The notes under the pieces are model-generated. The model saw only the letters and a list, made by a program, of their open reading frames with translations. It was not told where the DNA came from and searched no databases. This document shows positions 10,910 through 34,765 of a stretch of DNA of 64,000 nt, one piece after another. The DNA is from Catenulispora acidiphila DSM 44928. Its GTDB lineage: Bacteria; Actinomycetota; Actinomycetes; Streptomycetales; Catenulisporaceae. The first letter of the stretch is position 1; each line of letters opens with the position of its first letter. Both the position numbers and the translations under genes were made by a program. The stretch is from contig NC_013131.1 in assembly GCF_000024025.1 (NCBI RefSeq), positions 8,040,229 to 8,104,228 on the forward strand. The letters are read 5' to 3'.

Positions 10910-11587
10910 CTAGCGTCTACGCGGCACGAGTCCGGATTCGAAGGCGATGATGGCCAGGTGGACGCGGTCCCGGGCTTCGAGCTTGGCGAACAGGCGCGCT
11001 ACGTGGGTCTTCGCGGTTGCTGCGCTGATGATTAGGCGTTCGGCTATCTCGGCGTTCGATAGTCCCTGGCCGACCAGTGCCAGGACTTCGCGCTCTCGGT
11101 CGGTGATTTGCGCGATCTGGTGCGGGTGCTCGAGGGGTTCGGGGTGTGGTTTGGGGGTGGTGGGGGTTGCGGTGAAGTCCGCGATCAGGCGGCGGGTCAC
11201 GCTGGGGGCGATCAGTGCGTCGCCGGCTGCGACTACGCGGATTGCGTCGAGGATTGCGTCCAGGGCCATGCTCTTGAGGAGGAAGCCGCTGGCTCCGGCG
11301 CGGAGGGCGCCGTAGACGTATTCGTCGTCGTCGAAGGTTGTCAGGACCAGGATCTTGGGTGGGTCGGGCTCGGCGGTTGCCTGGCGGGTGGCCTCGATGC
11401 CGTCCATGCCTGGCATTCGGATGTCCATCACTACGACGTCCGGGTGTAGTTCGCGGACCAGGCGTACTGCCTCGCGGCCGTTGGCGGCCTGGGCTACCAC
11501 CTCGAGGTCGTCGGTGTCGCCGATCAGGATGCCGAGTCCGACGAGCATCAGGGGTTGGTCGTCGACGAGGAGTACTCGCACGGTCAT
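10910..11587 (-). CDS. NarL/FixJ-family response regulator
   Basis: A 225-residue two-component response regulator. The receiver domain (1-120) has acidic DD at 9-10, phospho-acceptor D55 in VVVMDIRMPG and the conserved T/K positions (LTTFDDDE, LLKSM). The C-terminal LuxR HTH (about 158-215) reads LTDREREVLALVGQGLSNAEIA. Its ATG overlaps the stop of the upstream histidine kinase gene, so both are made together. It presumably controls the divergent ABC exporter set, as is common for this gene order in actinomycetes (inference). Confidence 0.93.
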   Translation of the reverse strand: MTVRVLLVDDQPLMLVGLGILIGDTDDLEVVAQAANGREAVRLVRELHPDVVVMDIRMPGMDGIEATRQATAEPDPPKILVLTTFDDDEYVYGALRAGASGFLLKSMALDAILDAIRVVAAGDALIAPSVTRRLIADFTATPTTPKPHPEPLEHPHQIAQITDREREVLALVGQGLSNAEIAERLIISAATAKTHVARLFAKLEARDRVHLAIIAFESGLVPRRR

Positions 11588-16350: not shown

Positions 16351-16376
16351 AACTATCATTAGTAAAGAAAGTATGC
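16351..16376 (+). promoter_or_regulatory. Putative ROK operator/promoter upstream of the ROK gene
   Basis: AACTATCATTAGT followed by AAAGAAAGTATGC lies 25-50 bases before the ROK start. The AACTATC..AAGAAAGTA pattern is shared with 22779-22802 (reverse strand) and partly with 29421-29446. A TTGACC box at 16340-16345 could serve as -35. It probably mediates autoregulation by the ROK protein. Confidence 0.5.
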
Positions 16377-16400
16377 AGTCGTCGAGGTGCGAACGGGGCA

Positions 16401-17609
16401 GTGATGGTGGTCGCTAGTGAGCGGATCCGGTTCGGCTTGGCCGCTCCTGTGCGGGTGCAGGCTGCGGGGAGTATTGCGGACGCCACGCAGACTCAGCTGT
16501 TCGCGGAGATTCTCACTGCTGGGCCGCTTTCGCGGACTGAGCTGGCGCGGCGTGCCGATCTGTCGCAGTCGACGGTGACCAAGGTGGTCAATCCGCTCAT
16601 CGAGGCCGGCTATGTGGTTGAGGTGGGCGCCAAGAGTTCGGGGATGGGTAGGCCGCATCGGTTGTTGCGGGTCGCCGCGGATCGGTATGCGGTGATCGGC
16701 GTGAAGATCGCGCCGGGGTCGGTGACCGGTGTGCTGGCTGATCTTGAGGCTCGGGTGCTCGCTCATCGGACGCGGCCTCTCACCGCGGGTCACGATCCGG
16801 CGGAGGCGTTGGACGCGGCGGTGGCTGTGGTGCGGGAGCTGGTCGACGACCCCACGGCACACGGCGAGGTTCTGGGACTTGGTGTGGGACTCGGCGGTCA
16901 TGTGGACACCGCCTCGGGGCGGGTGGCGCATTCCGGCGTGCTCGGGTGGGACAACGTGCAGGTCGCTGAACCGTTGGCGGCGGCGACGGGGCTGCCGACG
17001 GTCGTGGACAACGACGTGAACGCGCTGGCGATCGCCGAGCGCTGGTTCGGCGCGGGCCGCGACATCGATTCGTTCGTGCTGGTGACCACCGGACCCGGTG
17101 TGGGTTGTGGTCTGCTGCTCGGCGGGCAGTTGTACGCCGGGTCCACAGGGCTGGCCGGCGAGTTGGGCCACATCCCGCTGCAGGCGAACGGAGTGGTCTG
17201 CGACTGCGGGAACCGCGGATGTCTGGAGACGGTGGCGTCGGACCGGGCAGTGCTGCGGGAGATCGCCGCACACGGCGGATCGATCACCGATATCGGCGAG
17301 GCGATCACGGCGGCGCGGTCCGGTGATGAGCGGGCCTTGGCGGCGTTCGAGACGATGGGCACGGCGTTGGGCCTGGGTCTGGCGACCGTGTGCAACCTGT
17401 TCAACCCACAGCGGATCGTGCTGACCGGCGAGCGGGCGAGTGCTTATGACCTGTTCGGGTCCGCGTGCGAAAAGTCGTGGCGGGAGCACGCGTTCTCCAC
17501 GGCGGCTCAGGACTGCGAGTTGGTCGTGGACGAGGCCGACGACTTGATGTGGGCACGCGGCGCGGGATGCCTGGTGATCCGGGAAGCGGTCGGGGCGTCG
17601 GTGGGCTGA
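16401..17609 (+). CDS. ROK-family transcriptional repressor (NagC/XylR type)
   Basis: A 402-residue regulator. An N-terminal winged HTH (about 30-85, LSRTELARRADLSQSTVTKVV) is followed by a ROK sugar-kinase-like domain (about 95-395). This includes the ROK glycine motif (TTGPGVGCGLLLGGQLYAG) and the zinc-binding cysteine cluster CDCGNRGCLE (about 273-282). The GTG at 16401 and the ATG at 16404 are both possible starts behind GGGG. It converges on the GH13 gene 50 bases away and is next to a sugar ABC operon. With the shared AAGAAAGTA elements, this makes it the likely repressor of the dextran/isomalto-oligosaccharide genes (inference). Confidence 0.9.
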   Translation: MMVVASERIRFGLAAPVRVQAAGSIADATQTQLFAEILTAGPLSRTELARRADLSQSTVTKVVNPLIEAGYVVEVGAKSSGMGRPHRLLRVAADRYAVIGVKIAPGSVTGVLADLEARVLAHRTRPLTAGHDPAEALDAAVAVVRELVDDPTAHGEVLGLGVGLGGHVDTASGRVAHSGVLGWDNVQVAEPLAAATGLPTVVDNDVNALAIAERWFGAGRDIDSFVLVTTGPGVGCGLLLGGQLYAGSTGLAGELGHIPLQANGVVCDCGNRGCLETVASDRAVLREIAAHGGSITDIGEAITAARSGDERALAAFETMGTALGLGLATVCNLFNPQRIVLTGERASAYDLFGSACEKSWREHAFSTAAQDCELVVDEADDLMWARGAGCLVIREAVGASVG

Positions 17610-17659
17610 TCTGCTGATCCGCTCTGGCAGACCGCGCCGCACCGACGCCAACGTGAGCA

Positions 17660-19345
17660 TTAAGAATTGCGGATGAGCCAGGCGGTGCTGGAGCCGGGCA
17701 GTACCCGGTTGCTGATCGTGGTGCTGGCCAGCGTCACATGGCCGAGCTCCTCCGACAGGTGAAACGGCGCGTCACCGAAGACGGTGACCACGGTCAGCGT
17801 CCCACGCGTGAAGATGAGCACGTCCGGGCGAGGCTGCTCGTGATCGGCCCAGGTGATCTGGTCGGGGGCGCCCGCGAACAGGGCTCGGCGCGCTGTCAGG
17901 GCGCTGCGATAGAAGTTCAGAGTCGAGTGCGGGTCGGTACTTTGCCGGTCCTGCGCGTAGTCGGCGAACCACAGCGGCTGCGGCAGCCAGGGCTTTCCGG
18001 CAGCGTTCGCAGGGCTGAAGCCGAAGCTCGGAGCGCTCGCGTTCCAGGGCAACGGGACACGGCAGCCGTCGCGACCGTGTTCACGGCCGGCCGACCGGGT
18101 CCAGATGGGGTCCTGGCGGGCTTCGTCGGGGATGTCCATGACCTCCGGCAGACCGAGCTCCTCCCCCTGATAGAGGAACGCGGCGCCGGGAAGTGCGAGC
18201 TGGAACAGCAGCGCCGCGCGAGCTCGAGCCTGGCCGACGGCTACGTCGACCGGGCCGCGGCGGCGGAGCAGACGCGCCATGGCGTCGGGTGACTCGAGGG
18301 GTTCAGCGGTGGTCAGGCCGTAGCGGGAGACCGCGCGGTGCGCGTCGTGGCTGTTGAGCACCCAGGCCAGGACGCCGGCCTGGTCCGGGACGGGTGCCGT
18401 CGCGGCCATCGCCTGCAGTGCTCTTTGAACGCTGGCGCGGAAGGCGGCGGCGTCCCAGTTCTGGGTCATCAGGTCGAAGTAGAACGCCTCGTGCAGCTCC
18501 CCGGGCCGGATGAAGGCGGTGACGTGTTCAGCGGTGGGTGCCCAGATTTCGCCGACGAGCATCAGGTCTCTGTCGGCGTATTCCTCGGTCACGGCACGCC
18601 AGCTGCGGTAGATGTCGTGGACGGCGGGCTGGTTGCTGGCGGGGTCCGAGCCTCCAGGGCGGAAGCCGTTATCCGGACGGTCGGGAAGTCCGTCGGCCTT
18701 GACCAGCATGGCGGCCACATCGATGCGGAAGCCGTCGACGCCCTTGTCGAACCAGTGGCGCAGCATGTCCTGAAAGTGTGCGCGGACCTCGGGTCGATCC
18801 CAGTTCAGGTCGGGCTGCCAGGAGTCGAACAGGTGCAGGTACCACTGGCCGGGGCTGCCGTCGGGGTCCGTGGTCCGGGTCCAGGCCGAGCCGCCGAACA
18901 CGGATTGCCAGTTGTTGGGCGGCAGTTCGCCGTCGGCGCCTTGACCGTCGTGGAAGTGGAACAGGGCGCGCTGCGATGAGCCGGCAGGGCTGTTCAGTGC
19001 TTGCTGGAACCAGGGGTGTTCGGCCGAGCAGTGGTTGGGGACGATGTCGAGCAAGACCTTGAGACTGCGGTCGTGCGCGGCTTTGACCAGCCGGTCCAGC
19101 GCTGCCGTTCCGCCGTAGAGCGGGTCGATGCTGAAGTAGTCGGCGATGTCGTAGCCGCCGTCCCGTCCGGGCGAGGGATAGCAGGGGCTCAGCCACAGCG
19201 CGTCCACGCCGAGGCGCTCCAGATGGTCCAGCCGCGAGGCCAGGCCGTCCAGATCGCCGGTGCCGTCTCCGTCGCCGTCGGCGAAGGACTTCACGTAGAC
19301 CTGGTAGACGACGGCGTCACGCCACCATGGGCGAGCGGTGCTCAC
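17660..19345 (-). CDS. GH13 alpha-glucosidase (oligo-1,6-glucosidase-like)
   Basis: A 561-residue intracellular glycoside hydrolase without a signal peptide. The (beta/alpha)8 motifs are present: WWRDAVVYQVYVKSF, DIVPNH (region I), GFRIDVAAML (region II, nucleophile Asp), GEIWAP (region III, acid/base Glu) and NSHDAHRAVSRYG (region IV, stabilising Asp). The residue right after the nucleophile is Val. In yeast isomaltase versus maltase this position favours alpha-1,6 activity, but the rule is not strict. The start is GTG at 19345, preceded by AAGGAG. It is the last gene of the binding-protein/permease operon, so it likely cleaves imported isomalto-oligosaccharides to glucose. Confidence 0.88.
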   Translation of the reverse strand: MSTARPWWRDAVVYQVYVKSFADGDGDGTGDLDGLASRLDHLERLGVDALWLSPCYPSPGRDGGYDIADYFSIDPLYGGTAALDRLVKAAHDRSLKVLLDIVPNHCSAEHPWFQQALNSPAGSSQRALFHFHDGQGADGELPPNNWQSVFGGSAWTRTTDPDGSPGQWYLHLFDSWQPDLNWDRPEVRAHFQDMLRHWFDKGVDGFRIDVAAMLVKADGLPDRPDNGFRPGGSDPASNQPAVHDIYRSWRAVTEEYADRDLMLVGEIWAPTAEHVTAFIRPGELHEAFYFDLMTQNWDAAAFRASVQRALQAMAATAPVPDQAGVLAWVLNSHDAHRAVSRYGLTTAEPLESPDAMARLLRRRGPVDVAVGQARARAALLFQLALPGAAFLYQGEELGLPEVMDIPDEARQDPIWTRSAGREHGRDGCRVPLPWNASAPSFGFSPANAAGKPWLPQPLWFADYAQDRQSTDPHSTLNFYRSALTARRALFAGAPDQITWADHEQPRPDVLIFTRGTLTVVTVFGDAPFHLSEELGHVTLASTTISNRVLPGSSTAWLIRNS

Positions 19346-19418
19346 TGGGGATTCTCCTTGCGGGTTGAGCGGCAGTGTCGAGATCCGACGGGGGTGCTCG
19401 GTGCGGCGCGGTGTGCGG

Positions 19419-20330
19419 CTACTTCAGTGCGCCGGAAGTGATGCCGCGGCTGATGGTGCGCTGGAAGATCAGGAAGAACAGGACGGCCGGCAAAATACCC
19501 AGCAGTGCCGAGGAACTGGTCGTGGTCACATCCATCATGTTCTGCCCCTGCAACAGCCCCAGTGCCACAGGAACGGTCTGTTTGCTGTTCGAGACCAGGA
19601 AGACCAGCGGGAAGAAGAACTCGTTCCAGGTCCAGATGAAGAAGAAGGTGAACAGCACGGTGAGGGTGGACCGGCTGATCGGGATCACCACATGCCACAG
19701 GGTTCGAAGACGGCCGGCGCCGTCGACGGAGGCGGCGTCGAGCAGCTCACGGGGGAACTCGCCGTAGACCGAGGACAACAGGTACGCGCCGAAGGCGCTG
19801 TGGATCACGCCGAAGACGATGATCAGGCTGGTGCGCGTGTCGTAGAGGTTCATGGATTTGGCCGCGTAGTACAGCGGGTAGACCAGTTCCTCTTGGGGCA
19901 GCACGTTGGCGATCAGGAAGAAGATCAGCAGCGCCCCGCGTCCGCGCAGGCGACCGATGCCGATGGCGTAGGCGTTCAGGGTGGACAACACCACGCCGAT
20001 GACGGCAGCTCCCAGGGATATCAGGAAGCTGTTGAGCAGCATCAGCCCGAAGTCGGCGCGGTTCCAGAAGTCGATGAGCCCCGACAGGTGCAGCGCGCTC
20101 GGCAGCGAAAGCGGACCGCCGCTGGCGTATTCGCTGGGCGTCTTCACAGCGTTGATGGCGACCAGCAGGAACGGCGCCAGCACCAGCAGGGCCAGCACGA
20201 GGAGCACGGCCAGCACGGCGTAGCGGGCGCGGCCGGGTCCGAGCCGGCGCCGCCCGGGCGTCTCGCGGGACGAGCGCCGCGAACGGGGCGAGCGGGTCGG
20301 CGGCTTGGCGGTCAGCGTTCGGGTGGTCAC
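19419..20330 (-). CDS. ABC sugar transporter permease (MalG-like)
   Basis: A 303-residue inner-membrane permease of the carbohydrate uptake CUT1 family. After a basic N-terminus rich in Arg/Ser/Pro, six hydrophobic segments follow (first at about 35-60). The EAA loop is visible as ELLDAASVDGAGRLRTLWHVVIP. The GTG at 20330 overlaps the stop of the upstream permease (GTGA), indicating coupling. No ATPase of the MsiK/MalK type is in the operon. Actinomycete CUT1 systems commonly share a distant MsiK, so that is the probable energy source. Confidence 0.93.
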   Translation of the reverse strand: MTTRTLTAKPPTRSPRSRRSSRETPGRRRLGPGRARYAVLAVLLVLALLVLAPFLLVAINAVKTPSEYASGGPLSLPSALHLSGLIDFWNRADFGLMLLNSFLISLGAAVIGVVLSTLNAYAIGIGRLRGRGALLIFFLIANVLPQEELVYPLYYAAKSMNLYDTRTSLIIVFGVIHSAFGAYLLSSVYGEFPRELLDAASVDGAGRLRTLWHVVIPISRSTLTVLFTFFFIWTWNEFFFPLVFLVSNSKQTVPVALGLLQGQNMMDVTTTSSSALLGILPAVLFFLIFQRTISRGITSGALK

Positions 20331-21244
20331 GGCTTCTCCGTCTTCTGGTTGCGGGCCTGCACCCGCAGGAACACGACGGCCAGGATGACGATCATCGCGG
20401 TCAGGACCGTGGAGATCGCCGAGCCGTAGCCGACGTTGGCGTTCTGGAAGTAGTTCTTGTAGGCGAAGTAGCTCGGCACGAGGGTCGAGTTGCCCGGGCC
20501 TCCGCCGGTGAGCACGAAGATCTGCCCGAAGATCTTCAAGGTGGCGATGGTGGTGGTGACGACCACGACGTAGATCTCGGGACGGATCAACGGGACCGAC
20601 ACCCGCAGGAAGCGTTGCCGCCAGCCGGCGCCGTCGAGCTCGGCCGCCTCGTACAGCTCCGGGTCGACCCGCTGCAGCCCGGCCATGAACATGACCAGCG
20701 GGTAGCCGATCTGGGCCCAGGCGAGGGTGAACATCACAGTGGGCAGCGCGTAGTGCGGATCGCCGAGCCAGTTGTGGGCCAGCGAATGCAGTCCGACTTT
20801 GTTCAGGACGGTGTTCAGCGCGCCGTAGTCCGGGTTGAGGATCCACCCCCAGACCACGCCGGTGACCGCGACCGGCAGCACCTGCGGCAGATAGAAGCTG
20901 GAGCGCAGGAAGGCTGCCATGCGCGGGCCGAAGCGCTTGGCGACGTAGTCGAACAGCACCGCGGCCAGGGCCAGGCCGATCATCGTCGGGACGATCACCA
21001 TGGCCAGGATCAGGATGCCGATGTTCTTGAACGAGGCCCAGAAGTTCTGGTCGTGCAGCAGCCTGGTGTAGTTGTCCAGGCCGATCCAGTGCAGCGGGCC
21101 GATGCCTTGCCAGCGGGTGAAGCTGATCACCATGGTGGCGATCAGCGGGACGATGATGACCGCGGTGCACAGCAGCATTCCCGGGGCCAGGAACAGGGCA
21201 TAGCCGCCTTGGGCGGGCATGCGGGCTTTCTTGGTTGCCGACAT
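20327..21244 (-). CDS. ABC sugar transporter permease (MalF-like)
   Basis: A 305-residue CUT1 permease with six membrane helices (the first about 20-40, FLAPGMLLCTAVIIVPLIAT) and the EAA loop ELYEAAELDGAGWRQRFLRVSVP. It pairs with the overlapping MalG-like protein to form the translocation channel for the sugar delivered by the upstream binding protein. It starts at ATG 21244, 67 bases after the binding-protein gene. Confidence 0.93.
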   Translation of the reverse strand: MSATKKARMPAQGGYALFLAPGMLLCTAVIIVPLIATMVISFTRWQGIGPLHWIGLDNYTRLLHDQNFWASFKNIGILILAMVIVPTMIGLALAAVLFDYVAKRFGPRMAAFLRSSFYLPQVLPVAVTGVVWGWILNPDYGALNTVLNKVGLHSLAHNWLGDPHYALPTVMFTLAWAQIGYPLVMFMAGLQRVDPELYEAAELDGAGWRQRFLRVSVPLIRPEIYVVVVTTTIATLKIFGQIFVLTGGGPGNSTLVPSYFAYKNYFQNANVGYGSAISTVLTAMIVILAVVFLRVQARNQKTEKP

Positions 21245-21311
21245 GGCGTTCCTTCGTGGAGCCCGGCGGGCGGACGGCCTGCCCGCCCGCCGGGAGGTGA
21301 GCTGGCTGTGG

Positions 21312-22607
21312 CTACTGCGGTGCGTTCTGCTTGTAGGCGGAGCCGATGGTGTCGAGCATCGAACTCGGGCTCTTGGATCCGTTGATCAGTTCCTGGATCG
21401 CGTGCTGGAGCGTGTCGTAGTAGCCGGTGACCGGCCAGTCCGGGTAGAACCCCAGGCCGTCCTTGGCGGTGATCGAGTCGAACTCGGTGATCAGTTCCTT
21501 GCTGCTGGGGTTCGTGATCGCCGCCGGATCCGCGGCCACCGGCACCCCGCCGCTGTTGCCCATCAGGTTCTGGACGTTCTTGCTGAGCGTGGTGTCGATG
21601 AAGTCGTAGGCCAGGTCCTTGTTCTTGGCCTTGGTGGGCACCACCCACAGGTTGCCGCTGGAGCCGACCTGCAGCGTGTTGCCGGGGAACAGGAACGTGC
21701 CCCACTGCATGCCCTTGACCTCGCTCAGGAATTGGCCGTACCACCAGTTCCCGGAGAACATCATCGGGATCTTGCCCTGCTCGAAGGCGTTGGCCTCGTC
21801 CTGGGCCTTGACCGCGGCGGAGTCCTTGCTGATGTAGCCCTTCTTCACCCAGTCGGCGAAGGTGTTCGCGGCGTAGGACATCTGCGGGCCCTGGAAGTCG
21901 ACCTTGCCCTTGAACAGCTGGTAGTCGTTGACCCAGGTGCGGTCGGCCTTGGACAGCGCCAGTTCGTAGAACAGGTGCACCCCGAGGTAGTCCGCGCCGC
22001 TCATGGCCAGCGGGGTGACCCCGGCGCCCTTGAACGTCGCCATCGCCGCCGTGAACTGATCGGGCGTGGTGGGGACCGGGACGTTGTACTTCGCGAACAG
22101 GTCCTTGTTGTAGTAGACGGTGAGGAATTCGCCGTTCATCGGCACGCCGTACCAAGTGCTGCCGCCCATGATGCCGCCGGTGTACTTGGCGGTGGTCTGC
22201 AGCGACGGACTCAACGTCTTGTCCCAGCCGCGCGAGGCGGCCTGGCTGCTCAGATCGGTCAGCAGACCCTGCTTGGACAACAGGCCGGCGGTGGAGTTGC
22301 CCTTGTTGTACTCCATCACGTCGGGCACGTCGTTGGAGTTGAGGATCATCCCGGCGTTCTGCTGGATCTGGTCGAAGCTCTTCGCCTCGAACTTGACCGT
22401 CACCCCCGGATGGGCGGCCTGGAACTCCTTGATCGCCTCGGCGCGTGCGATGCCGGAGGCACTGTCGTTGGCTTCGTAGTCCCAGACCACGAGCGTCTTG
22501 CCGCCGCCGCCCGAGGCGGCTTTGGAGCTGGAACTCCCGCAGCCGGCCAAAACCAGCGACACGGCCGCGGCCAATGCCACGCAGACCGCGTACTTAGTGG
22601 AGCGCAC
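21312..22607 (-). CDS. Extracellular sugar-binding lipoprotein of the ABC importer
   Basis: A 431-residue family-1 solute-binding protein. The signal peptide has the lipobox LAGC at about residues 24-27, so it is a lipid-anchored receptor outside the membrane. The mature part shows the usual two-lobed pattern (VVWDYEAND, VTVKFEAKSFDQI, DVMEYNKG, PMNGEFLTVYYNKDLF, MMFSGNWW). The GTG at 22607 is chosen because AGGAGGA lies eight bases upstream; the open frame extends to 22703 but without signal-like sequence. First gene of the importer operon; a putative ROK operator lies about 175 bases upstream. The ligand is inferred to be isomalto-oligosaccharide. Confidence 0.92.
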   Translation of the reverse strand: MRSTKYAVCVALAAAVSLVLAGCGSSSSKAASGGGGKTLVVWDYEANDSASGIARAEAIKEFQAAHPGVTVKFEAKSFDQIQQNAGMILNSNDVPDVMEYNKGNSTAGLLSKQGLLTDLSSQAASRGWDKTLSPSLQTTAKYTGGIMGGSTWYGVPMNGEFLTVYYNKDLFAKYNVPVPTTPDQFTAAMATFKGAGVTPLAMSGADYLGVHLFYELALSKADRTWVNDYQLFKGKVDFQGPQMSYAANTFADWVKKGYISKDSAAVKAQDEANAFEQGKIPMMFSGNWWYGQFLSEVKGMQWGTFLFPGNTLQVGSSGNLWVVPTKAKNKDLAYDFIDTTLSKNVQNLMGNSGGVPVAADPAAITNPSSKELITEFDSITAKDGLGFYPDWPVTGYYDTLQHAIQELINGSKSPSSMLDTIGSAYKQNAPQ

Positions 22608-22778
22608 TTCGTGTCCTCCTGTGTCCGATGAGGGTGCGGCACGGCTTCCGCTTGACCCCGTGAGGGAACCGGGGCGATCACCAACAGCGGAACCGCTGGC
22701 CAAGAGGGCCCGCGAAGCCTGGCCCGGTTGCCTGCCGATGGCCCCCTGGGGGGCCGGTGCTCGCCATCGTAGGAAGAG

Positions 22779-22802
22779 TTACTTTCTTGGGTCAAGATAG
22801 TT
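22779..22802 (-). promoter_or_regulatory. Putative ROK operator upstream of the sugar-importer operon
   Basis: Read on the minus strand it gives AACTATCTTGACC followed by CAAGAAAGTAA, with the imperfect dyad CTTG-N3-CAAG. It shares AACTATC and AAGAAAGTA with the element upstream of the ROK gene. The distance to the binding-protein start (about 175 bases) leaves a long leader. The rest of 22608-23001 has no gene. Confidence 0.55.
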
Positions 22803-22945
22803 AGAGGTTACAGCAGCGTCACGAATCGGCGGGGGCACGAGTTGAGGTCTCGCCGACCCGAGGCCGTAAACGCGCTGGTCACCCGCGCGAGGCAGGGGTG
22901 TGTCGCGGCAGCGGTGGCGAGTGTTTGTTACCGCGTGAAGGCAAG

Positions 22946-22983
22946 CGGGGCCGGTCCGCGCTGTCAGGTGCGGGCCGGCCCCG
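22946..22983 (-). terminator. GC-rich hairpin after the tatA-like gene
   Basis: A 14-bp stem (CGGGGCCGGTCCGC / GCGGGCCGGCCCCG, one G-U pair) encloses a 10-base loop, 18 bases downstream of the tatA-like stop on the minus strand. There is no T-run, as is usual for actinomycete terminators. Confidence 0.6.
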
Positions 22984-23001
22984 GGTTTCGCAGACTCGGG
23001 G

Positions 23002-23250
23002 CTAGGCCCGGAGCCGGTCGGGAATGTCGGTGACGGCGTGGTCCTCGTGCCGCAGATCTTGGTGTGGCGGCAACGACGCCTGTTCCGCTTCTGCCGCATC
23101 GTCCTGAGCGCTCTGGCGCAGCTCGCTCTTGAAGATGCGCAGCGACTGTCCCATGGAGCGCGCGGCGACGGGCAGCCGTTTGGCGCCGAACAGGACGACG
23201 GTGATCGCGAGGATGAGCAGGATGTGCCAGGGTTCGAATGCGCCGGTCAT
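23002..23250 (-). CDS. tatA: TatA-like twin-arginine translocase subunit
   Basis: An 82-residue protein with one N-terminal membrane helix (WHILLILAITVVLFG, about 8-22). The Tat hallmark FGAKRLPVAARSMGQSLRIFK follows, then a charged tail. The ATG at 23250 places the helix at the very N-terminus, as in TatA. The gene is 73 bases behind the GH66 gene on the same strand, and the GH27 enzyme upstream has a Tat signal. It may therefore be a dedicated or additional TatA for polysaccharidase export; a housekeeping tatAC pair would be elsewhere. Confidence 0.9.
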   Translation of the reverse strand: MTGAFEPWHILLILAITVVLFGAKRLPVAARSMGQSLRIFKSELRQSAQDDAAEAEQASLPPHQDLRHEDHAVTDIPDRLRA

Positions 23251-23323
23251 GTCTCCAACTCTGGTCGCGGTGGCGGCGCGCCGCCCGGCCCGGCGTGCGC
23301 GGTACCGGGCAGCGCGCCTCGGG

Positions 23324-26300
23324 TCATCCGACGGTGGCCGGTAGGCCGTTGACGGTGAACGCGGAGGGCTTCGCATCGGCACCGCTGTAGGTGCCGCTGA
23401 AGCCGATCGATATCGAGGCTCCCGGCGCGATGGCGCCGTTGAAGGACTGGTTGGTGGCGGTGACGTTATGGCCGTTCTGCGACCAGTTGGCGTTCCAGCC
23501 GCTGCCGACCTGCTGGTTGCCGGGGAAGGCGAAGCCCAGCGTCCAGCCGTTGATCGCGGTGCTGCCGGTGTTGGTGATCGTCACCGCGACGGACATCCCC
23601 GATCCCCAGTCGCTTTGCACCGCGTACGTCACCTTGGCCGTACTCGGCGGTGGTGCGCCTGCGGTGGTCACCGCCGTTGTGCCGGACGCCGAACCGGTCA
23701 GGCCTGTGGAGTCCTTCGCCTTGACGTAGAACTGGTAGGCAGTGGATGGCGACAGCCCGGTGATGGTGGCGCTCAGAGTGCCGGCACCGGTGGACGCCAC
23801 GACCTTGTCAGGGTTGCCGACCTGGAAGACCTGGTAGCCGGAGATCGGGTTGCTGCCCGCGGCTGCCGCGGTCCAGGTCAGCGTGGCCGCGCTGGTGGTG
23901 ACGTTCGACGCCGCCGGAGTACCTGGAGCACCCGGTGGTGTGGAACCGCCGGAGGCAGTGGTCACCGACGTGGTGCCGGACGCCGAACCGGTCAGCCCTG
24001 TGGAGTCCTTCGCCTTGACGTAGAACTGGTAGCTGGTCGACGGCGACAGACCACTGACGTTCGCCGACAGACCGGTCGAGGAGGCCACGACGGCGTCCGG
24101 GGAGCCGACGCGGTACACGTCGTACCCGGCGACCGGGTTGCTGCCGGCCGTGGCAGCGGTCCAGGTCAGGGTCGCGGAGTTGGCGGTGATGTTGGACGCG
24201 ACCGGGGTCCCGGGCGCGCCCGGGGCGGTCGGCGTACCGCCGCTGCCGGGCAGAACCGGCGCGTCGCCCGGTCCGGTCTGGCTGGTGTACACCATGTCCC
24301 AGTAGTTGAGGCTGGGCACGGTGAACGACACGTACGAGCCGCCGGAGTCGGTCCCGGTGGTGAACGGCACCGAGTAGGTGGTGCCGTTGTTGTAGTCCGG
24401 CGAGGCGAACATGACGGCCTTGGGCGTGTTCTTGAAGTAGTACTTCACCGGCACATTGGTCAGCTGTGTCGGCGCCGGGTGCGGCGTGGTGATGTGCGAG
24501 CACATGTCGCACGCGCCGGTCTGCCAGAGGTTGCTGGACTGCCCGACCATGTTGATGAGCTGGATGACCTCGTGGTCCGCGTCCTGCTTGGTGAACGCCC
24601 AGACGTCGCCCGGCGTCGCCTGGCTGCTGACCGTCTGGCCGGAGACGGCGACGGTCTGATTGGTCGCCGTCTGGCCGTCCCGCAGCAGGTTCTCGTAGGC
24701 GGTCATGAAGTCGTAGTAGTTCTGCACCGACTGGGACAGCGAGGCACTCATGGGTGTCGCGCCGGCCCGGTACTCCTGATAGTCCAGCATCAGGCCGTTG
24801 TCGCCGAGCTCTTCGTGGCTGCCGCCGCTGGCGAACAGCGTGGAGTCCAGCAGCAGCACGTCCGGGGTGTTGAACGTGCCGCCGCCGCCGTTGGCGAAGT
24901 CGGTGTACGCCGCGACCGTCAGCGACTTGCCGCGGCCGGTCGGGCTGGCCGACGCGCTCTCGCTGAAGCCTTGGTCGATGGCCGTCTTCAGGCTGCCGTA
25001 GTCCCAGTACTGGTCCCGGTCGTTCGGCCACAGCTCGGAATAGAGCAGGTCCACCGCGCTGGTGTTGGCCTCGCAGTGGGCGTGGTCGTAGGTGACCGGG
25101 TTGAACATCAGGTACTTGCCACTGCCCAGGGCGCTCTTGGCATAGCTGAGGAACGACGGGAAGGTCCCGCTGAGCCACGTCGCCGAGCCGGCCACGTTGT
25201 GAACGGGCGTCGTGCTGTGGGCGCCGTCGGTGTCGGTGGTGCACGAGTCGCTGGCCACGCCGGCCGGCTGGCCGTTGTAGTTGTAGTCGACGGTGTCGGG
25301 GTCGCCGAAGGTGTCACCGTGGAAGCCGTCGAAGTCGAACGCTTGGATCGCGGCGTTCTGCTGGCCCATCAGGTACTGCTGCCAGCCGGGGTTGCTGGGA
25401 TCCATGTAGTCCCACTGGAAGAACGCCAACGGCTTGCTGTGGTTGGTGTCCTGGTAGACGCCCCACGACGGACTGACTCCGAGCCCTTGCGTGTGGTAGT
25501 CCGGCGCACCGCAGCACGAGCCGTTGTCCGCCGAGAAGATGGCGTTGTACGGCATCGCGACGATGTTGCTGTTGTGCGCGGCGGTGACCAGATCCTTCAC
25601 CGCCGAGGCGTACACCGTCTTCTGGTTGCCGTCGTCGGTCCACGAGGAACACGGCGCGCTGACCGTGCCGCACAGCGGCTGGTCGTGGTTGTACTGCCAG
25701 TCGTAGAACTGCAGGCCGTCGATGTGGTAGTTCGACATCGAGCTCATGATCGAGGCGGCCTGGGACGTCGACAGGCCTTGGTTCCCGAAGGAGTTGTTGG
25801 TCATGTAGCCGTAGCGCGGGAACCGGCTCCAGTCCGAGGAGACGTCGACCGCGACGTTGATCGAGTCCAGCGCCTTGCCGGAGGAGTCGGTGGCGACCGC
25901 GCTGACCATGTAGCCGGTGTAGTCGGTCGACGGTGCGGTCCAGTGGAAGGCCAGTGTCGAGGACGCGCCAGAGCCGAGGTTCAGAGTCTGGGCCTGCGAA
26001 GCGCTGGCGGCGTTCTGCATCGTCATGAAGTACAAGGTGACGGCGCCGCCGCTGATGGCACTGCCGGTCTTGTTGGCTGCGTTGACGGTCAGCGAGACGG
26101 TGTCGCCGGGTGCGTACCGCGACTTGTCGGTCGTGATCGAGGCGAGTACCTGCTGGGTGCGAGCGACCCCCGGGTCGCCCGAGGTGCCCGAGGCTGCGGC
26201 CGGTGCGGCCGAACTGACGCCTGGCATCCACCCGATCACGCTGGCAGCCAGCGCCGCGACGGCCAACGCGGCCCGGTGGCGGCTGGGTCGAACCGCTCTC

Positions 26301-26347
26301 GGCCGGTGATCGCGCGCCGGGATTCTTCGTCGTGTCCTGATGTGCAT
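23324..26347 (-). CDS. Secreted GH66 dextranase with two FN3 domains and CBM2
   Basis: A 1007-residue exported endo-dextranase or cycloisomaltooligosaccharide-forming enzyme. An Arg-rich n-region and hydrophobic signal (about 1-48, ending SSAAPAAA) precede a beta-sandwich. The GH66 barrel follows: FPRYGYMTNN near 174, YHIDGLQFYDWQYNHD, DGFHGDTFGD with the presumed nucleophile D345, and LLYSELWPND with presumed acid/base E438. A beta-rich domain (about 560-680) leads to two FN3 modules (about 690-880) and a C-terminal CBM2 (about 905-1007, VQSDWGSGM..NGWTLGF). The ATG at 26347 is chosen over the longer open frame to 26503 because it starts the signal peptide. It follows the GH27 gene by 97 bases, probably in one operon. 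Confidence 0.9.
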   Translation of the reverse strand: MHIRTRRRIPARDHRPRAVRPSRHRAALAVAALAASVIGWMPGVSSAAPAAASGTSGDPGVARTQQVLASITTDKSRYAPGDTVSLTVNAANKTGSAISGGAVTLYFMTMQNAASASQAQTLNLGSGASSTLAFHWTAPSTDYTGYMVSAVATDSSGKALDSINVAVDVSSDWSRFPRYGYMTNNSFGNQGLSTSQAASIMSSMSNYHIDGLQFYDWQYNHDQPLCGTVSAPCSSWTDDGNQKTVYASAVKDLVTAAHNSNIVAMPYNAIFSADNGSCCGAPDYHTQGLGVSPSWGVYQDTNHSKPLAFFQWDYMDPSNPGWQQYLMGQQNAAIQAFDFDGFHGDTFGDPDTVDYNYNGQPAGVASDSCTTDTDGAHSTTPVHNVAGSATWLSGTFPSFLSYAKSALGSGKYLMFNPVTYDHAHCEANTSAVDLLYSELWPNDRDQYWDYGSLKTAIDQGFSESASASPTGRGKSLTVAAYTDFANGGGGTFNTPDVLLLDSTLFASGGSHEELGDNGLMLDYQEYRAGATPMSASLSQSVQNYYDFMTAYENLLRDGQTATNQTVAVSGQTVSSQATPGDVWAFTKQDADHEVIQLINMVGQSSNLWQTGACDMCSHITTPHPAPTQLTNVPVKYYFKNTPKAVMFASPDYNNGTTYSVPFTTGTDSGGSYVSFTVPSLNYWDMVYTSQTGPGDAPVLPGSGGTPTAPGAPGTPVASNITANSATLTWTAATAGSNPVAGYDVYRVGSPDAVVASSTGLSANVSGLSPSTSYQFYVKAKDSTGLTGSASGTTSVTTASGGSTPPGAPGTPAASNVTTSAATLTWTAAAAGSNPISGYQVFQVGNPDKVVASTGAGTLSATITGLSPSTAYQFYVKAKDSTGLTGSASGTTAVTTAGAPPPSTAKVTYAVQSDWGSGMSVAVTITNTGSTAINGWTLGFAFPGNQQVGSGWNANWSQNGHNVTATNQSFNGAIAPGASISIGFSGTYSGADAKPSAFTVNGLPATVG

Positions 26348-26444
26348 CGTGGCTCTTTCTGTGCCCGCTGGGCGGACACTGAGGGATTGTCGGCCGCCGC
26401 CCGCGGATGCGGGCAGCGGTTGGTGCTGGGGCGTCGTTCGCCGA

Positions 26445-29261
26445 TCACTGCGTGGTGGCGGGCTGCCCGTTGATCGTGAAGGCGGTCGGCTTGGCGTTGG
26501 CACCGCTGTAGGTACCGGTGAAGCCGATCTGGACCGAGGCGCCCGGGGCGATCGCGCCGTTGAAGGACTCGCTGGAGGCGGTGACGTTCGCGCCGCTCTG
26601 GGACCAGGTGGCGTTCCAGCCGTTGGTGACGTGCTGGTTGCCCGCGAAGGTGAATCCGAGGGTCCAGTTGTTGATCGCGCTGGTACCGGTGTTGGTGATC
26701 GTCACCAAGGCGCTGAAGCCCGAGCCCCAGTCGCTTTGGACGGCGTAGGAGACCGCGGCTCCAGCCGAAACCGCAGCCGTCGTCACGGTTTTCGTGGCTG
26801 AAGCGGCGCCGAGAGCTCCGGCGCTGTCCTTGGCCTTGACGTAGAAGCCGTACTGCGTGGCGCTCATCAGGCCACTGATGGTCGCGGTGAGGGTTCCGGC
26901 AGCGGTGGAAGCGACCACGGTGTCGGGCGATCCGACCTCGTAGACCTGGTATCCGGCGATCGCGTTGCTGCCAGCGGCTGCCGCGCTCCACGTCAGGGTC
27001 ACCGCGGTCGCGGTGATGGTGGACGCTGCCGGTGTGCCCGGTGCGCCGGGCGGGGTCGAGCCGCCGGAGCCGGCAGTGGTGACTGCCGTCGTTCCGGATG
27101 CGGCGCCGACGGTTCCCGCGCTGTCCTTGGCCTTGACGTAGAAGCTGTAGCTCGTCGCCGCAGTCAGGCCGCTGATGGTCGCGGTGAGGGTTCCGGCGGC
27201 GGTGGAAGCGACCACGGTGTCGGGTGATCCGACCTGGTAGACCTGGTATCCGGCGATCGGGTTGCTGCCCGCGGCTGCCGCGCTCCACGTCAGGGTCACC
27301 GCGTTGGAGGTGATGGCCGAAGCCGCCGGTGTGCCGGGGGCGCCGGGCGGGGTGGAGCCTCCTGAGGAGGCGCCGACTTGGATCGAGTCCAGATTCACTG
27401 ATCCGGAATCGGTGGAGGTGCGCTCCAGGGTGATCAGGTTCGTCCCCGCGGCCAGCGCGAGGTTGACGGTGACCGTGCTCCAGGTACCGGCGCCGCCGGT
27501 GCCCGGGAGGCTGACCGAGGTGCTGCCCGAGACCGTGCCCGCCACGTTCTTGGCCGATATGGTCAGGCTCGCGGCGCTGCCGGAGTTGGCGTATCGGATG
27601 GTGACCGGAGTCGTGCCGCCCGCACCGGTGACGCCGAAGACGACCCGGGCGCCGACGCTACCCAGTCCGTCCACGTAGCCGTTGCCGCTGAAGCCGGACG
27701 CGGCGTTGTCGAACATCGCCCCGCCGCCCCAGGCAGCCACCTGAGACTGGTAGACCGGCGCCCCGGACCCGGCCGGCGTGATCTTGATCAGGGACACCCC
27801 GTGCATCGGCAGGGACGCCGAATACGACGTCATCTGGCCCAGGTTGGTGTTGTTCCACACGTCGTGGACCGTGCCGCCGGCCGCGAGCCCCAGAGCGCCG
27901 GCGAAGTCGATCGACTTGGTGACGCTGGAGTAGGTGGTGTTGAACAACGCGACCAGCCAGGTGCCGTCGGGCAGCTGGCCCGTCCACGTCTCCGGGTCCC
28001 GGCTCGTGGGATCCGACGAGAACGGATTGGCGTTGTGGTAGTAGGGCTTGCCGACGAACCCGGCCTTGTTGATGTTCAGGATGTCGTTGTTCTGCCAGAA
28101 GCTGAGGTAGGAGCCGATGTTGTCGGACCGGTCGCCGACGATCAGCGGCGAGCCGGCCATGGCGAACAGTGTCAGTGCCGTGCGGCGCTCGTCATCGCTG
28201 CCGAAGCTGTTCATCTCCAGGACGTCGCCGTCCAGGATCATCTGACCGCGCCCGGAGATATCGGAGAAGCCGGTGAAGCCCAGGAACGGGGTGTGCCACT
28301 GGGTCCAGTAGTTCTGCCAGCTCGACCGGCCGCCGTCCAGGAAGTTCCAGCCGCCGCTGCCGCAGTCGTCGTCGATGCGGATCAGGTCGCCGTAGCGCCG
28401 CTCGTTCTGGCCGTGGTTGAGCAAGTTGGGCATCACGACACTGACTTCCAGCCCGTCCCCGGCGGCCTCGCTGATCCAGCCCAGGGCGGTGGCGTAGTTG
28501 GCGCTGCCGTGCGCCACGCCGACCGTGCCCTCGTTCTGGTCGTAGCCGGTCTCGTACCACGCCCAGAAGTCGCCGCGCAGGTAGACCGCGCCCAGCTGCT
28601 TGAAGTAGTTGACGTAGCCCTGGACGAACTCCTTGGCGCCGTCCTTGGTCACGTCCACCCAGTAGATCTCCTGGGTGCCCTTGTTCCCGCCGAAGAAGTC
28701 CCCCGCGGTGACGATCGACGAGATCGGGATGTCCGGACGCCCGACCACCGTCTTGGACGGGTCGTTGTACGCACTCTTGGTCACCCACAGGGGGTTGTAG
28801 TAGACCCCCATCTTCAGCCCGAGCCCGGACAGGTACGACGACATCCCGGCCCAGCCCATGGCCCAGCTGTCCTGGTAGTTCAGGATGTAGCCGTTGGAGT
28901 TGGTCGCCTGGGTGTAGTCGACCCAGCCGTCGGTACAGGCCATGTCGATGCCGTAGGGCTTGAGGTTCTTCGCCACCCAGGTGACGTTCGCCTGCCAGCT
29001 GGCCTGCGACTGAGCGTTGTTGTTCGGGTAGTCGTAGCCGTACGTGGACCAGTACAGCGGCCCGGAACCGCCCCGGGTGAACACGCTGTCACGATCGACT
29101 GAGTCCGTCCCCACCGCGGACACAGCCACAGCCGTCGAGCCCACCAGGGCGCCCCTGCCACGCGACGCAGCGGCCGCCGAACCGGAACCGGCCGACAGCA
29201 AAGACCCGCCGACCACCACCGTTCCGCCGACCTTGAGCAGATCTCGCCGTGAGATCGCCAT
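26445..29261 (-). CDS. Tat-exported GH27 enzyme (isomalto-dextranase-like) with CBM35-like, two FN3 and CBM2 domains
   Basis: A 938-residue secreted clan GH-D enzyme. The N-terminus MAISRRDLLKVGG is a twin-arginine signal. The catalytic barrel (about 65-430) shows GIDMACTDGWVDY, a nucleophile D231 in YLRGDFWAWYE, and a probable acid/base Asp in RIDDDCGSGGWNF (297-299). The substrate loop WYETGYD differs from ordinary alpha-galactosidases, and family GH27 also contains isomalto-dextranases. Next to a GH66 dextranase, that role is favoured over alpha-galactosidase. A beta-sandwich, a CBM6/35-like domain (about 505-640), two near-identical FN3 modules (about 640-825) and a CBM2 follow. GGAGGT stands five bases before the ATG. 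The substrate is inferred, not proven. Confidence 0.85.
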   Translation of the reverse strand: MAISRRDLLKVGGTVVVGGSLLSAGSGSAAAASRGRGALVGSTAVAVSAVGTDSVDRDSVFTRGGSGPLYWSTYGYDYPNNNAQSQASWQANVTWVAKNLKPYGIDMACTDGWVDYTQATNSNGYILNYQDSWAMGWAGMSSYLSGLGLKMGVYYNPLWVTKSAYNDPSKTVVGRPDIPISSIVTAGDFFGGNKGTQEIYWVDVTKDGAKEFVQGYVNYFKQLGAVYLRGDFWAWYETGYDQNEGTVGVAHGSANYATALGWISEAAGDGLEVSVVMPNLLNHGQNERRYGDLIRIDDDCGSGGWNFLDGGRSSWQNYWTQWHTPFLGFTGFSDISGRGQMILDGDVLEMNSFGSDDERRTALTLFAMAGSPLIVGDRSDNIGSYLSFWQNNDILNINKAGFVGKPYYHNANPFSSDPTSRDPETWTGQLPDGTWLVALFNTTYSSVTKSIDFAGALGLAAGGTVHDVWNNTNLGQMTSYSASLPMHGVSLIKITPAGSGAPVYQSQVAAWGGGAMFDNAASGFSGNGYVDGLGSVGARVVFGVTGAGGTTPVTIRYANSGSAASLTISAKNVAGTVSGSTSVSLPGTGGAGTWSTVTVNLALAAGTNLITLERTSTDSGSVNLDSIQVGASSGGSTPPGAPGTPAASAITSNAVTLTWSAAAAGSNPIAGYQVYQVGSPDTVVASTAAGTLTATISGLTAATSYSFYVKAKDSAGTVGAASGTTAVTTAGSGGSTPPGAPGTPAASTITATAVTLTWSAAAAGSNAIAGYQVYEVGSPDTVVASTAAGTLTATISGLMSATQYGFYVKAKDSAGALGAASATKTVTTAAVSAGAAVSYAVQSDWGSGFSALVTITNTGTSAINNWTLGFTFAGNQHVTNGWNATWSQSGANVTASSESFNGAIAPGASVQIGFTGTYSGANAKPTAFTINGQPATTQ
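26790..27370 (-). repeat. Tandem duplicated FN3 module, 297-bp period, inside the GH27 gene
   Basis: Two consecutive FN3-encoding segments begin with the same GCCGGTGTGCC string at 27325 and 27028. They encode almost the same protein (GYQVYQVGSPDTVVAS versus GYQVYEVGSPDTVVAS; GTLTATISGL in both). The GH66 gene carries a related but more diverged pair. This points to recent in-gene duplication and module exchange between the two enzymes. Confidence 0.8.
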
Positions 29262-29420
29262 ACCTACCTCCTGGAGCAATGGGAGTCCACGGCGCTGCGC
29301 CGCAGACCGCTTACACCGCCCACCAGTGCGCCAAAAGCGCACGTCGAAGGCACCTCCCGCGACGCAAGGGTCCTGAGAGAGTGCGGATCGGTGGAGCGGC
29401 AAGGGGGAGTCTGCGACCGT

Positions 29421-29446
29421 ATCTTTCGTGTGTCAAGAAAGTAAGG
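29421..29446 (-). promoter_or_regulatory. Putative ROK operator upstream of the GH27 gene
   Basis: ATCTTTCGTGTGT followed by CAAGAAAGTAAGG contains CTTTC-N9-GAAAG and the CAAGAAAGTAA core seen before the importer operon. It lies 160 bases upstream of the GH27 start and about 175 bases upstream of the divergent ATP-grasp start, so it could act on either. Confidence 0.5.
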
Positions 29447-29620: not shown

Positions 29621-30817
29621 ATGGAATCCGTGCTCGTACTCTCCTGGAAGGCGATCGGCAACGTACCCGCCGCGGTCAAGGAGCTCCGGGCCCGCGACCT
29701 GCGACCGGTCCTGGTCTCCAACCTGCCCGACGATCCCAACGCCCGCCTGTGCGACGAGCATGTCGTCTTCGACTGGGACGGTGAGGAGTTCTCAGCTCTC
29801 ACCGCGCAGATCGACGAGCGAGGCATCACGCCGACCGCCGTGGTCAGCATGATCGAGAAGCTGATCGAGTGGCACATCGCGCTCGCCGCGCACTACGGCG
29901 TTCCCGGCGGCGACGCCGGCCGCACGGCGCTGGCGAGCAAGACCCTGGTCAGGGAGCGTATGCGGTCCCTCGGCCTGTCCGACATCAGGTTCTCCGGCGA
30001 CCCGAGGTCGGTGGACTTCTTCCCCGCCATCGTCAAGCCCGCGCGGGAGTCGGCGGCCTCCTACCTGGTGAAGCGAGTGGAGGACCGGGCCGAGCTGCTC
30101 GCTCACCTCAAACACCTGGAGGAGTCCGGGGCGGGCGGTCTGGAACTGATCGCCGAGGAGTACCTTCCCGGCACCGAGTTCTCCGTGGACGGTCCCGTGG
30201 TCGACGGCCGCTATCACCCGCTGCTCGCCGTCGAGAAGGCCGACCACGACGACGCCAAGCACCACGACGCGGGGCTGTCGTTCCACCCGCCGCAGCACAG
30301 CCACGTGCGGGCCGGGGTACGGGACCTATGCGAGGCGATCAACACCCTGTGCGCCGACCGCGGCCTGGACCAGATCTGGCTGCACATCGAGGGCCGGAGC
30401 ACACCCGACGGACGCACCGAGCTCATCGAGATCAACCCCCGGCCCGGCGGTCACCACACCGGAATCCCCACCGCCATCCGCGAGCTCTACGGCATCGATG
30501 TGATCGCGGCGAACGTCTCCATGGCGCTGGGCGAGTACGCGCCGCAAGGCCTGGGACCGTTGCGCGAGCAGCCGATCATCGGGAACGTGGAGATGGAGGC
30601 CGAGGAACTCGGCACGGTCCAGGTCGTCACCACCGAGGCGGAACTGCTCGCCCTACCCGGCGTCATCGACGTGCGCGTGTCCGACGGCTACCGGGTCACC
30701 AGCCTGAGCCAGGAGAACTTCTTCTTCTCCCTCACGATGACCGCCGATTCCGTGGAGCAGCTTCGCGAACAGGCGGCGAGAGTCCTCGACAGCTTCGAAT
30801 ACCGCGTCAAGCCGTAG
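29621..30817 (+). CDS. ATP-grasp domain carboxylate-amine ligase-like protein
   Basis: A 398-residue ATP-grasp protein. An N-terminal Rossmann-like lobe (1-110) begins MESVLVLSWKAIGNVPAAV. The ATP-grasp core carries the lysine strand FFPAIVKPARESAASYLVK, the ELIAEEYLPGTEFSVDG strand and the metal/phosphate motif ELIEINPRPGGHH (about 265-285). The C-terminal part matches the extension of L-amino-acid ligase/BtrJ-type enzymes. CCGGAGG precedes the ATG by eight bases; the upstream open frame to 29249 lacks support. The amino acid or acid substrate is unknown. No biosynthetic partner genes are next to it, and it is followed at once by a strong hairpin. Confidence 0.85.
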   Translation: MESVLVLSWKAIGNVPAAVKELRARDLRPVLVSNLPDDPNARLCDEHVVFDWDGEEFSALTAQIDERGITPTAVVSMIEKLIEWHIALAAHYGVPGGDAGRTALASKTLVRERMRSLGLSDIRFSGDPRSVDFFPAIVKPARESAASYLVKRVEDRAELLAHLKHLEESGAGGLELIAEEYLPGTEFSVDGPVVDGRYHPLLAVEKADHDDAKHHDAGLSFHPPQHSHVRAGVRDLCEAINTLCADRGLDQIWLHIEGRSTPDGRTELIEINPRPGGHHTGIPTAIRELYGIDVIAANVSMALGEYAPQGLGPLREQPIIGNVEMEAEELGTVQVVTTEAELLALPGVIDVRVSDGYRVTSLSQENFFFSLTMTADSVEQLREQAARVLDSFEYRVKP

Positions 30818-34334: not shown

Positions 34335-34765
34335 CAGGGTTCCCTTCGTATCGGAATGCACTGATAAGCCAAGCGAACTGCGTCCAGTGTCCAGTGGTCG
34401 CGGAGCCAGATCTGGTTGGCGCCGCCGGTGGAGCCCCAGAGAGCCCGGGCGACGGCGGCGAAAATTGTTTGTAACTGTTGGGTATTGATGCACTCGGCGG
34501 CGGTGCCGTCAAGGGTCGACCACTCCGGCACTGATAGAGCAGCCCGGCGGAGGGCCTGACAGCTGCCGATCCACGTGGCCTGACTCTCAGCGGTTACGAA
34601 CAATTTCGATACCGATTGAACAATCCCCTTGCCCAGGTGCTGGGTGGAGCGCGCCGTCCGGCGGGCGATGCAACCTGATGTGCGTCGGCTCAGTCACATT
34701 TCTTGGACCGGGGCGCAGTCGGGTGCGCTGGAGGCGGGGATGTCGGGTGGGGGTTGCGGGACCTA
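34335..34765. other. 431-base intergenic region with repeated GAACAAT motif
   Basis: This is the shared upstream region of the DUF4965 gene (minus) and the next hypothetical gene (plus). At 34598-34624 GAACAAT occurs twice, 20 bases apart, around TCGATACCGATT; the segment is locally AT-rich and may hold a promoter or operator. Another AT-rich stretch (AAAATTGTTTGTAACTG) lies near 34460. No coding region is convincing here. Confidence 0.35.

Follow-up and report, generated by a model that had tools for sequence, protein, structure and literature searches.

Dextranases and CITases both belong to GH66, and the catalytic residues of FjGH66 are Asp293 and Glu355, according to the accessible part of PMC10316084. 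FjDexUL of Flavobacterium johnsoniae combines GH66 with uptake genes and further alpha-glucosidases acting on dextran, a combination with a counterpart in the gene content of the locus analysed here; it differs in its SusC/D/E-type uptake and in having GH31/GH97/GH65 enzymes where our locus has an isomalto-dextranase and a GH13 enzyme (available text of PMC10316084). The CI cluster of Tepidibacillus decaturensis likewise brings together a CITase, a sugar-binding protein and an isomaltodextranase gene, but its enzyme is a cyclising one, not a dextranase, and the isomaltodextranase gene, which precedes that for the binding protein on the upstream side, is a truncated pseudogene (accessible portion of PMC13084667). 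The CMM cluster of Arthrobacter globiformis M6 has an ABC importer and encodes CmmB, the closest solved relative of our GH13 enzyme, but CmmB acts on cyclic maltosyl-maltose made from starch (available part of PMC7676653). In the open-licence literature we found nothing joining Catenulispora acidiphila with dextran, or isomaltodextranase with GH27.

We analysed a window of 64,000 nucleotides from C. acidiphila DSM 44928 (G000:C1:8040229-8104228), whose genome is a single contig of 10,467,782 bases. From left to right, the locus consists of a ROK gene on the plus strand, followed on the minus strand by genes for a GH13 enzyme, two permeases, a solute-binding protein (SBP), TatA, a GH66 enzyme and a GH27-type enzyme (Table 1; the SBP start, at the 22607 end, is our own choice, set at the lipoprotein signal). 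All the genes named in the initial annotation were recovered, and the TatA gene, missing from its list, has been added. The importer genes and the GH13 gene are closely packed and probably form one operon, and those for the GH27-type enzyme and GH66, 97 bases apart, probably form a second.

Table 1. Features of the locus, with positions in the window
Feature	Position	Strand	Evidence
Predicted operator 1, ACTATCATTAGTAAAGAAAGT	16352..16372	.	28 bp before ROK start; exact ACTWTC-N9-GAWAGT, one of two exact copies in the 10.47-Mb genome
ROK-family regulator, winged-helix N-terminus, predicted repressor	16401..17609	+	PF00480 3.1e-56, MarR_2/HTH_24
GH13 alpha-glucosidase, CmmB-like (GH13_30), without evident signal peptide	17660..19345	-	8yif/8yie 590 bits
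CUT1-type permease, MalG type	19419..20330	-	PF00528; 53% (L040), 50% (L046)
CUT1-type permease, MalF type	20327..21244	-	PF00528; 61% (L040), 64% (L046)
Solute-binding lipoprotein (SBP), LAGC lipobox	21312..22607	-	PF01547 2.5e-36; 49% (L040), 50% (L046)
Predicted operator 2, ACTTTCTTGGGTCAAGATAGT	22781..22801	.	Upstream of SBP-permease-permease-GH13 operon; exact match, one of two in genome
TatA-type translocase subunit, 82 aa	23003..23250	-	PF02416 61.1 bits, one of three family matches in genome
Predicted secreted GH66 dextranase, fn3-fn3-CBM2 tail	23324..26347	-	PF13199 628 bits, fn3, CBM_2; 5axg 353.6 bits
CBM2 of GH66 enzyme	23345..23638	-	PF00553 1.8e-30 for protein; matches cellulase/xylanase/chitinase CBM2 chains
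Predicted Tat-exported isomalto-dextranase (GH27 subgroup)	26445..29261	-	5awo 599.5 bits; tree; MAISRRDLLK start
CBM2 of isomalto-dextranase	26463..26756	-	PF00553 4.6e-31 for protein; 75% to GH66 CBM2
Predicted operator 3, TCTTTCGTGTGTCAAGAAAGT	29422..29442	.	Upstream of isomalto-dextranase; one mismatch to pattern

We consider it probable, at about 85%, that these genes form a self-contained locus for using dextran and isomalto-oligosaccharides, working as follows. Outside the cell, the GH66 endo-dextranase would cleave alpha-1,6-glucan mid-chain, and the Tat-exported isomalto-dextranase would take isomaltose off chain ends. The CUT1-type importer would bring in isomaltose and short isomalto-oligosaccharides with the help of an ATPase supplied from elsewhere in the genome, and the intracellular GH13 alpha-glucosidase would turn the imported sugars into glucose; we infer these reactions, and the imported sugar, from the sequence. 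ROK would repress three promoters through one palindrome until released by an isomalto-sugar, and the fn3-fn3-CBM2 tails would anchor both secreted enzymes to insoluble plant or fungal polysaccharide. A locus of this kind had been proposed initially, and the gene content here and in relatives, together with the common promoter palindrome, is consistent with one regulon. Enzymes, importer SBP and permeases, and regulator are all present; the locus had also been called complete, which is presumed rather than observed because no ATPase gene was seen in it. The parts are individually known, and the variation lies in the endo+exo pairing with matching CBM2 tails and a predicted three-promoter ROK regulon. 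The locus thus offers a putative actinobacterial dextran regulon open to testing, with a candidate operator and an uncommon pairing of enzymes.

The GH27-type enzyme (985-aa ORF) comprises a barrel, a beta-sandwich, a CBM35-like domain and an fn3-fn3-CBM2 tail. At E<=0.001, Pfam matched it with Melibiase_C, CBM_6, fn3-type and CBM_2 models, the GH27 barrel remaining without a match, and NCBIfam matched just the tail. Because Pfam sees, of the GH27 portion, the alpha-galactosidase C-terminal domain alone, and NCBIfam the tail alone, the specificity could easily be misread, and the annotation of this enzyme is an example of a naming pitfall. Most GH27 members are alpha-galactosidases, and this, with the sole Pfam call, would speak for an alpha-galactosidase or beta-L-arabinopyranosidase in a locus for plant galactosides; a search of PDB sequences reduces the probability of that reading to almost nothing. 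Residues 101-676 matched the isomaltodextranase 5AWO at 599.5 bits, with 48% identity over 585 columns, against 34.5 (4nx0) and 33.6 bits for the next GH27 chains, which are beta-L-arabinopyranosidases, and 22 bits for a putative alpha-N-acetylgalactosaminidase; among the 46 PDB chains that the search listed at E<=0.001, none is named an alpha-galactosidase. In a tree of 30 sequences, a 100/100 split also placed the window enzyme together with 5AWO and 18 homologues, apart from 10 further GH27-type proteins, these 10 being proteins of related genomes with activities themselves uncharacterised, and the comparison with alpha-galactosidases being carried by the PDB bit scores. The weak class-sample matches L003, L004, L005 and L020 fell outside the isomalto-dextranase group, although L020, a long row in the outgroup, may be in the wrong place; within the group, the long branch of the window enzyme leaves its position uncertain. 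By sequence, then, the enzyme is an isomalto-dextranase, as had been suggested at the outset.

Its barrel, beta-sandwich and CBM35-like domain are shared with 5AWO, from which it differs by the additional fn3-fn3-CBM2 tail. D178 and D293 (numbering of aligned sequence A1) are invariant between the two enzymes, and Asp278 and Asp393 of the 985-aa ORF are the predicted nucleophile and acid/base, respectively. We take the conserved pair to be Asp227/Asp342 of the Arthrobacter enzyme, and 5AWO presumably derives from Arthrobacter globiformis. The WYETGYD loop that had been singled out as unusual is indeed present, but it aligns with WYEDGRD of 5AWO and is therefore not unusual for this subgroup. 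Scanning genome contigs for isomalto-dextranase relatives yielded 16 loci, 13 of them actinobacterial and three others (L047, L049, L050), and two sister-genus loci (L069, L070) were added, which brought the set to 18 loci, 15 actinobacterial. The predicted Tat export signal, also recognised earlier, contains a twin-arginine motif, and such a motif lies near the start in all 15 actinobacterial homologues (13 by pattern, two by eye).

PF13199 is matched along the full length of the model by the GH66 protein, its single match in the genome. In the numbering of the 1059-aa ORF, Asp397 (GFHGDTF) and Glu490 (LLYSELW) align with the Asp and Glu of solved GH66 chains, in keeping with the nucleophile and acid/base motifs first assigned to them. 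Since CITases fall within the same family, the locus could instead serve cyclic isomalto-oligosaccharides, which GH66 would make or degrade and the importer would take up, as in CITase bacteria. Tepidibacillus decaturensis, with its CITase, importer binding protein and truncated isomaltodextranase gene, lends this idea some support; the authors who described it argue, however, that an active isomalto-dextranase alongside would compete for the same chains (accessible portion of PMC13084667). Among PDB sequences, the best match is the dextranase 5AXG at 353.6 bits; the CITase 3WNK follows as the next kind at 277.2 bits, and then 9SJG at 181.7 bits. An insertion of about 120 residues in 3WNL (chain 391-510) is absent from the window GH66, yet 9SJG-type chains, named CITase, also align to it without such a gap; CITase activity therefore appears unlikely. 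Overall, we regard service to cyclic sugars as improbable and retain the dextran reading.

In GH13, a Val after the nucleophile is a marker of alpha-1,6 specificity, and the enzyme had at first been assigned to isomaltose on this basis. The Val is present (GFRIDVA), but CmmB has an identical stretch, so that the residue is not diagnostic and is weak evidence for alpha-1,6 specificity. CmmB was the closest solved relative over the full length, its structures 8YIF/8YIE scoring 590 bits against 267 bits for the best oligo-1,6-glucosidase. These structures were identified as A. globiformis M6 CmmB, of subfamily GH13_30, through a reference title in a citing paper (available part of PMC13392212). 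As CmmB acts on a mixed alpha-1,4/alpha-1,6 sugar, the window GH13 may be a general alpha-glucosidase. Better support than the Val for a role on isomalto-sugars comes from locus L073 of another genome, in which a GH13 enzyme 58% identical to that of the window is encoded about 300 bases from GH66, beside CUT1-type and ROK genes. Hydrolysis of isomaltose and isomalto-oligosaccharides is the predicted function.

Pfam recognised an SBP and two BPD permeases, the composition of a CUT1 importer, and the proposed role of the importer is supported by SBP and permease proteins 49-64% identical in the isomalto-dextranase loci L040 and L046. The TatA gene lies between the SBP and GH66 genes, and its product is the second-best of the three PF02416 matches in the genome. 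The idea that TatA belongs to such loci as a conserved component was rejected, with no match at E<=0.001 in 24 loci (a set in which L071 and L072 repeat contigs of L048 and L040, and L076 comes from the window's own genome). A TatA-type match was found in 14/14 family genomes and two at E<1e-13 in 7/14; crude ORF lists of six of these TatA regions showed varied gene settings. In two family genomes, L143 (5437-7546) and L144 (4428-6470), an extra TatA gene lies near a gene whose product starts MSSHREAPEIS and is presumably DUF4331-like; a neighbouring gene in L144 begins with an RR-type sequence. With two strong matches in half of the family genomes, and the one in L144 near an RR-start gene, a link between the TatA of our locus and the Tat-exported isomalto-dextranase is only a suggestion.

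The regulator has a ROK domain with an N-terminal winged helix (Pfam), and 13 of the 15 actinobacterial isomalto-dextranase loci have a ROK gene within the flanks that were fetched. A 21-bp palindrome lies upstream of the ROK gene, the SBP operon and the isomalto-dextranase gene; no separate copy lies immediately before GH66. The pattern ACTWTC-N9-GAWAGT has two exact copies genome-wide, at 16352 and 22781, both in the locus. With at most one mismatch there are six copies, three of them in locus promoters, the extra four being 29422, 11043 and two elsewhere; the copy at 11043-11063 is in the window and outside the locus. Between the arms ACTWTC/GAWAGT, two of the three sites have a core TGnGTCAAG, from which operator 1 deviates by 4 mismatches to the core pattern. 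The palindrome is not enriched at <=2 mismatches genome-wide (74 sites vs 176 for the reversed control) or, with 3 mismatches allowed, within the window (11 sites vs 14 expected); the signal resides in how strong the three sites are and where they lie. We infer binding of ROK to the palindrome, repression and the nature of the inducer.

In relatives, the full arm pattern gave no promoter site in 16 loci and was rejected; just the core recurs. The core pattern was derived from the two clearest window sites and written after similar sites had been seen in L046 and L039. A first zone test, in which six loci and their zones were picked once the matches were known, gave 6/6 loci, against a mean of 0.23 and a maximum of 1.08 for 40 shuffles. 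A second test took in the whole set of 18 loci and defined the zones by a fixed rule, as the 300 bases upstream of the isomalto-dextranase, ROK, SBP and GH66 starts. Here the best match of the core fell inside a zone in 6/18 loci (4/4 Streptomyces and 2/2 sister-genus loci, all of the same order) and, with ties in L041 and L042, the summed score was 6.67 of 18, a value reached by none of 500 shuffled patterns (mean 0.89, sd 0.91, largest 6.19). In the other 12 loci, including all those of Micrococcaceae, there was no clear site, the best core match being outside a promoter or tied. In L073, one of the GH66 loci, the core is matched weakly, with 5 mismatches, in the interval separating ROK from SBP. 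The mapped sites of the Streptomyces ROK regulators CsnR and RokB differ in sequence from the palindrome, as far as the available parts of PMC3048496 and PMC4856308 describe them. The sister-genus isomalto-dextranase locus L069 (5502-8204) carries two ROK genes side by side, 67% and 50% identical to that of the window, and a site resembling the palindrome lies upstream of each (6745, 8204).

Over their final 300 residues, an fn3-fn3-CBM2 arrangement in both, the secreted enzymes share 71% identity (212 of 300 aligned). The genome encodes 28 CBM2 domains, and the two in the locus match each other best, at 75%, with the next best at 58% and 61%. The mutual likeness of the tails suggests that a single module was copied inside the locus, and a cellulose-type binding module would seem to have been placed on two alpha-1,6-glucan enzymes. 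Where the 1EXG chain has three Trp, which we take to be binding residues, the GH66 CBM2 has Trp, Trp and Phe; the ligand of the CBM2 modules is a prediction. CBM2 modules on dextran enzymes had been called unusual, and none was found at E<=0.001 in the loci of the 15 actinobacterial isomalto-dextranase homologues, 13 of which end after the CBM35-like domain, the two sister-genus proteins having another tail of about 100 residues. Among the papers listed from the open-licence literature, none is about a dextranase carrying CBM2, judged by titles. Tentatively, the tails and a TatA tuned to the large folded isomalto-dextranase might form a surface-targeted endo/exo system for dextran held in material that contains cellulose or chitin, assembled within one lineage, but we think this rather doubtful.

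GH66 was found in 3/394 genomes of the class, 2/391 of the order and 1/14 of the family, and isomalto-dextranase at E<=1e-40 in 5/391 genomes of the order. In the class sample, 60/394 genomes match the isomalto-dextranase at E<=0.001, most of them covering just the CBM35-like part, and the best match outside the source genome is 31% identical (1.6e-26). Neither gene was found in the nine other genomes of the same genus, two of which are 77-81% complete, and two of the three sister-genus genomes have an isomalto-dextranase without GH66; the locus is accessory. Such a distribution, the TatA gene between importer and GH66, and the lack of a palindrome directly upstream of GH66 would fit a scenario in which GH66 and isomalto-dextranase were acquired separately, lie side by side by accident and are not co-regulated with the importer. 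We give this scenario a very small probability, in view of the palindrome common to three promoters, the two most similar tails and the same gene combination in Streptomyces pathocidini; as both genes are rare, chance adjacency is itself unlikely.

At least one of the 18 isomalto-dextranase loci has GH66 in its fetched flank, a lower bound because some contigs end early. This is L046 of S. pathocidini NRRL B-24287, in which a stretch of about 10 kb holds GH66, a Tat isomalto-dextranase, ROK, GH13, an SBP and two permeases, with a signal-like N-terminus on GH66 and a palindrome core between GH66 and ROK. It differs from our locus in gene order and in the distance of its enzymes (GH66 34% and GH13 30% identical to those of the window), and no CBM2 or TatA was found there. 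A combined endo/exo system had been expected to be unusual; it is rare, but it is not unprecedented, given S. pathocidini and the truncated isomaltodextranase gene in the T. decaturensis CITase cluster (accessible portion of PMC13084667), and the pairing is not new in kind. Three further actinobacterial GH66 loci (L073, L074, L075) have ROK and CUT1-type neighbours, and no signal peptide was seen by eye in their GH66 proteins.

The flanking ATP-grasp gene (29621-30817) was rejected as a synteny anchor for the insertion site of the locus because it is itself patchy, being present in 4/14 family genomes; a paralogue elsewhere in the genome is 68% identical. The protein encoded at 31641-34493 resembles glutaminase A (GtaA_6_Hairpin, DUF5127, DUF4964) and carries ricin-type lectin repeats.
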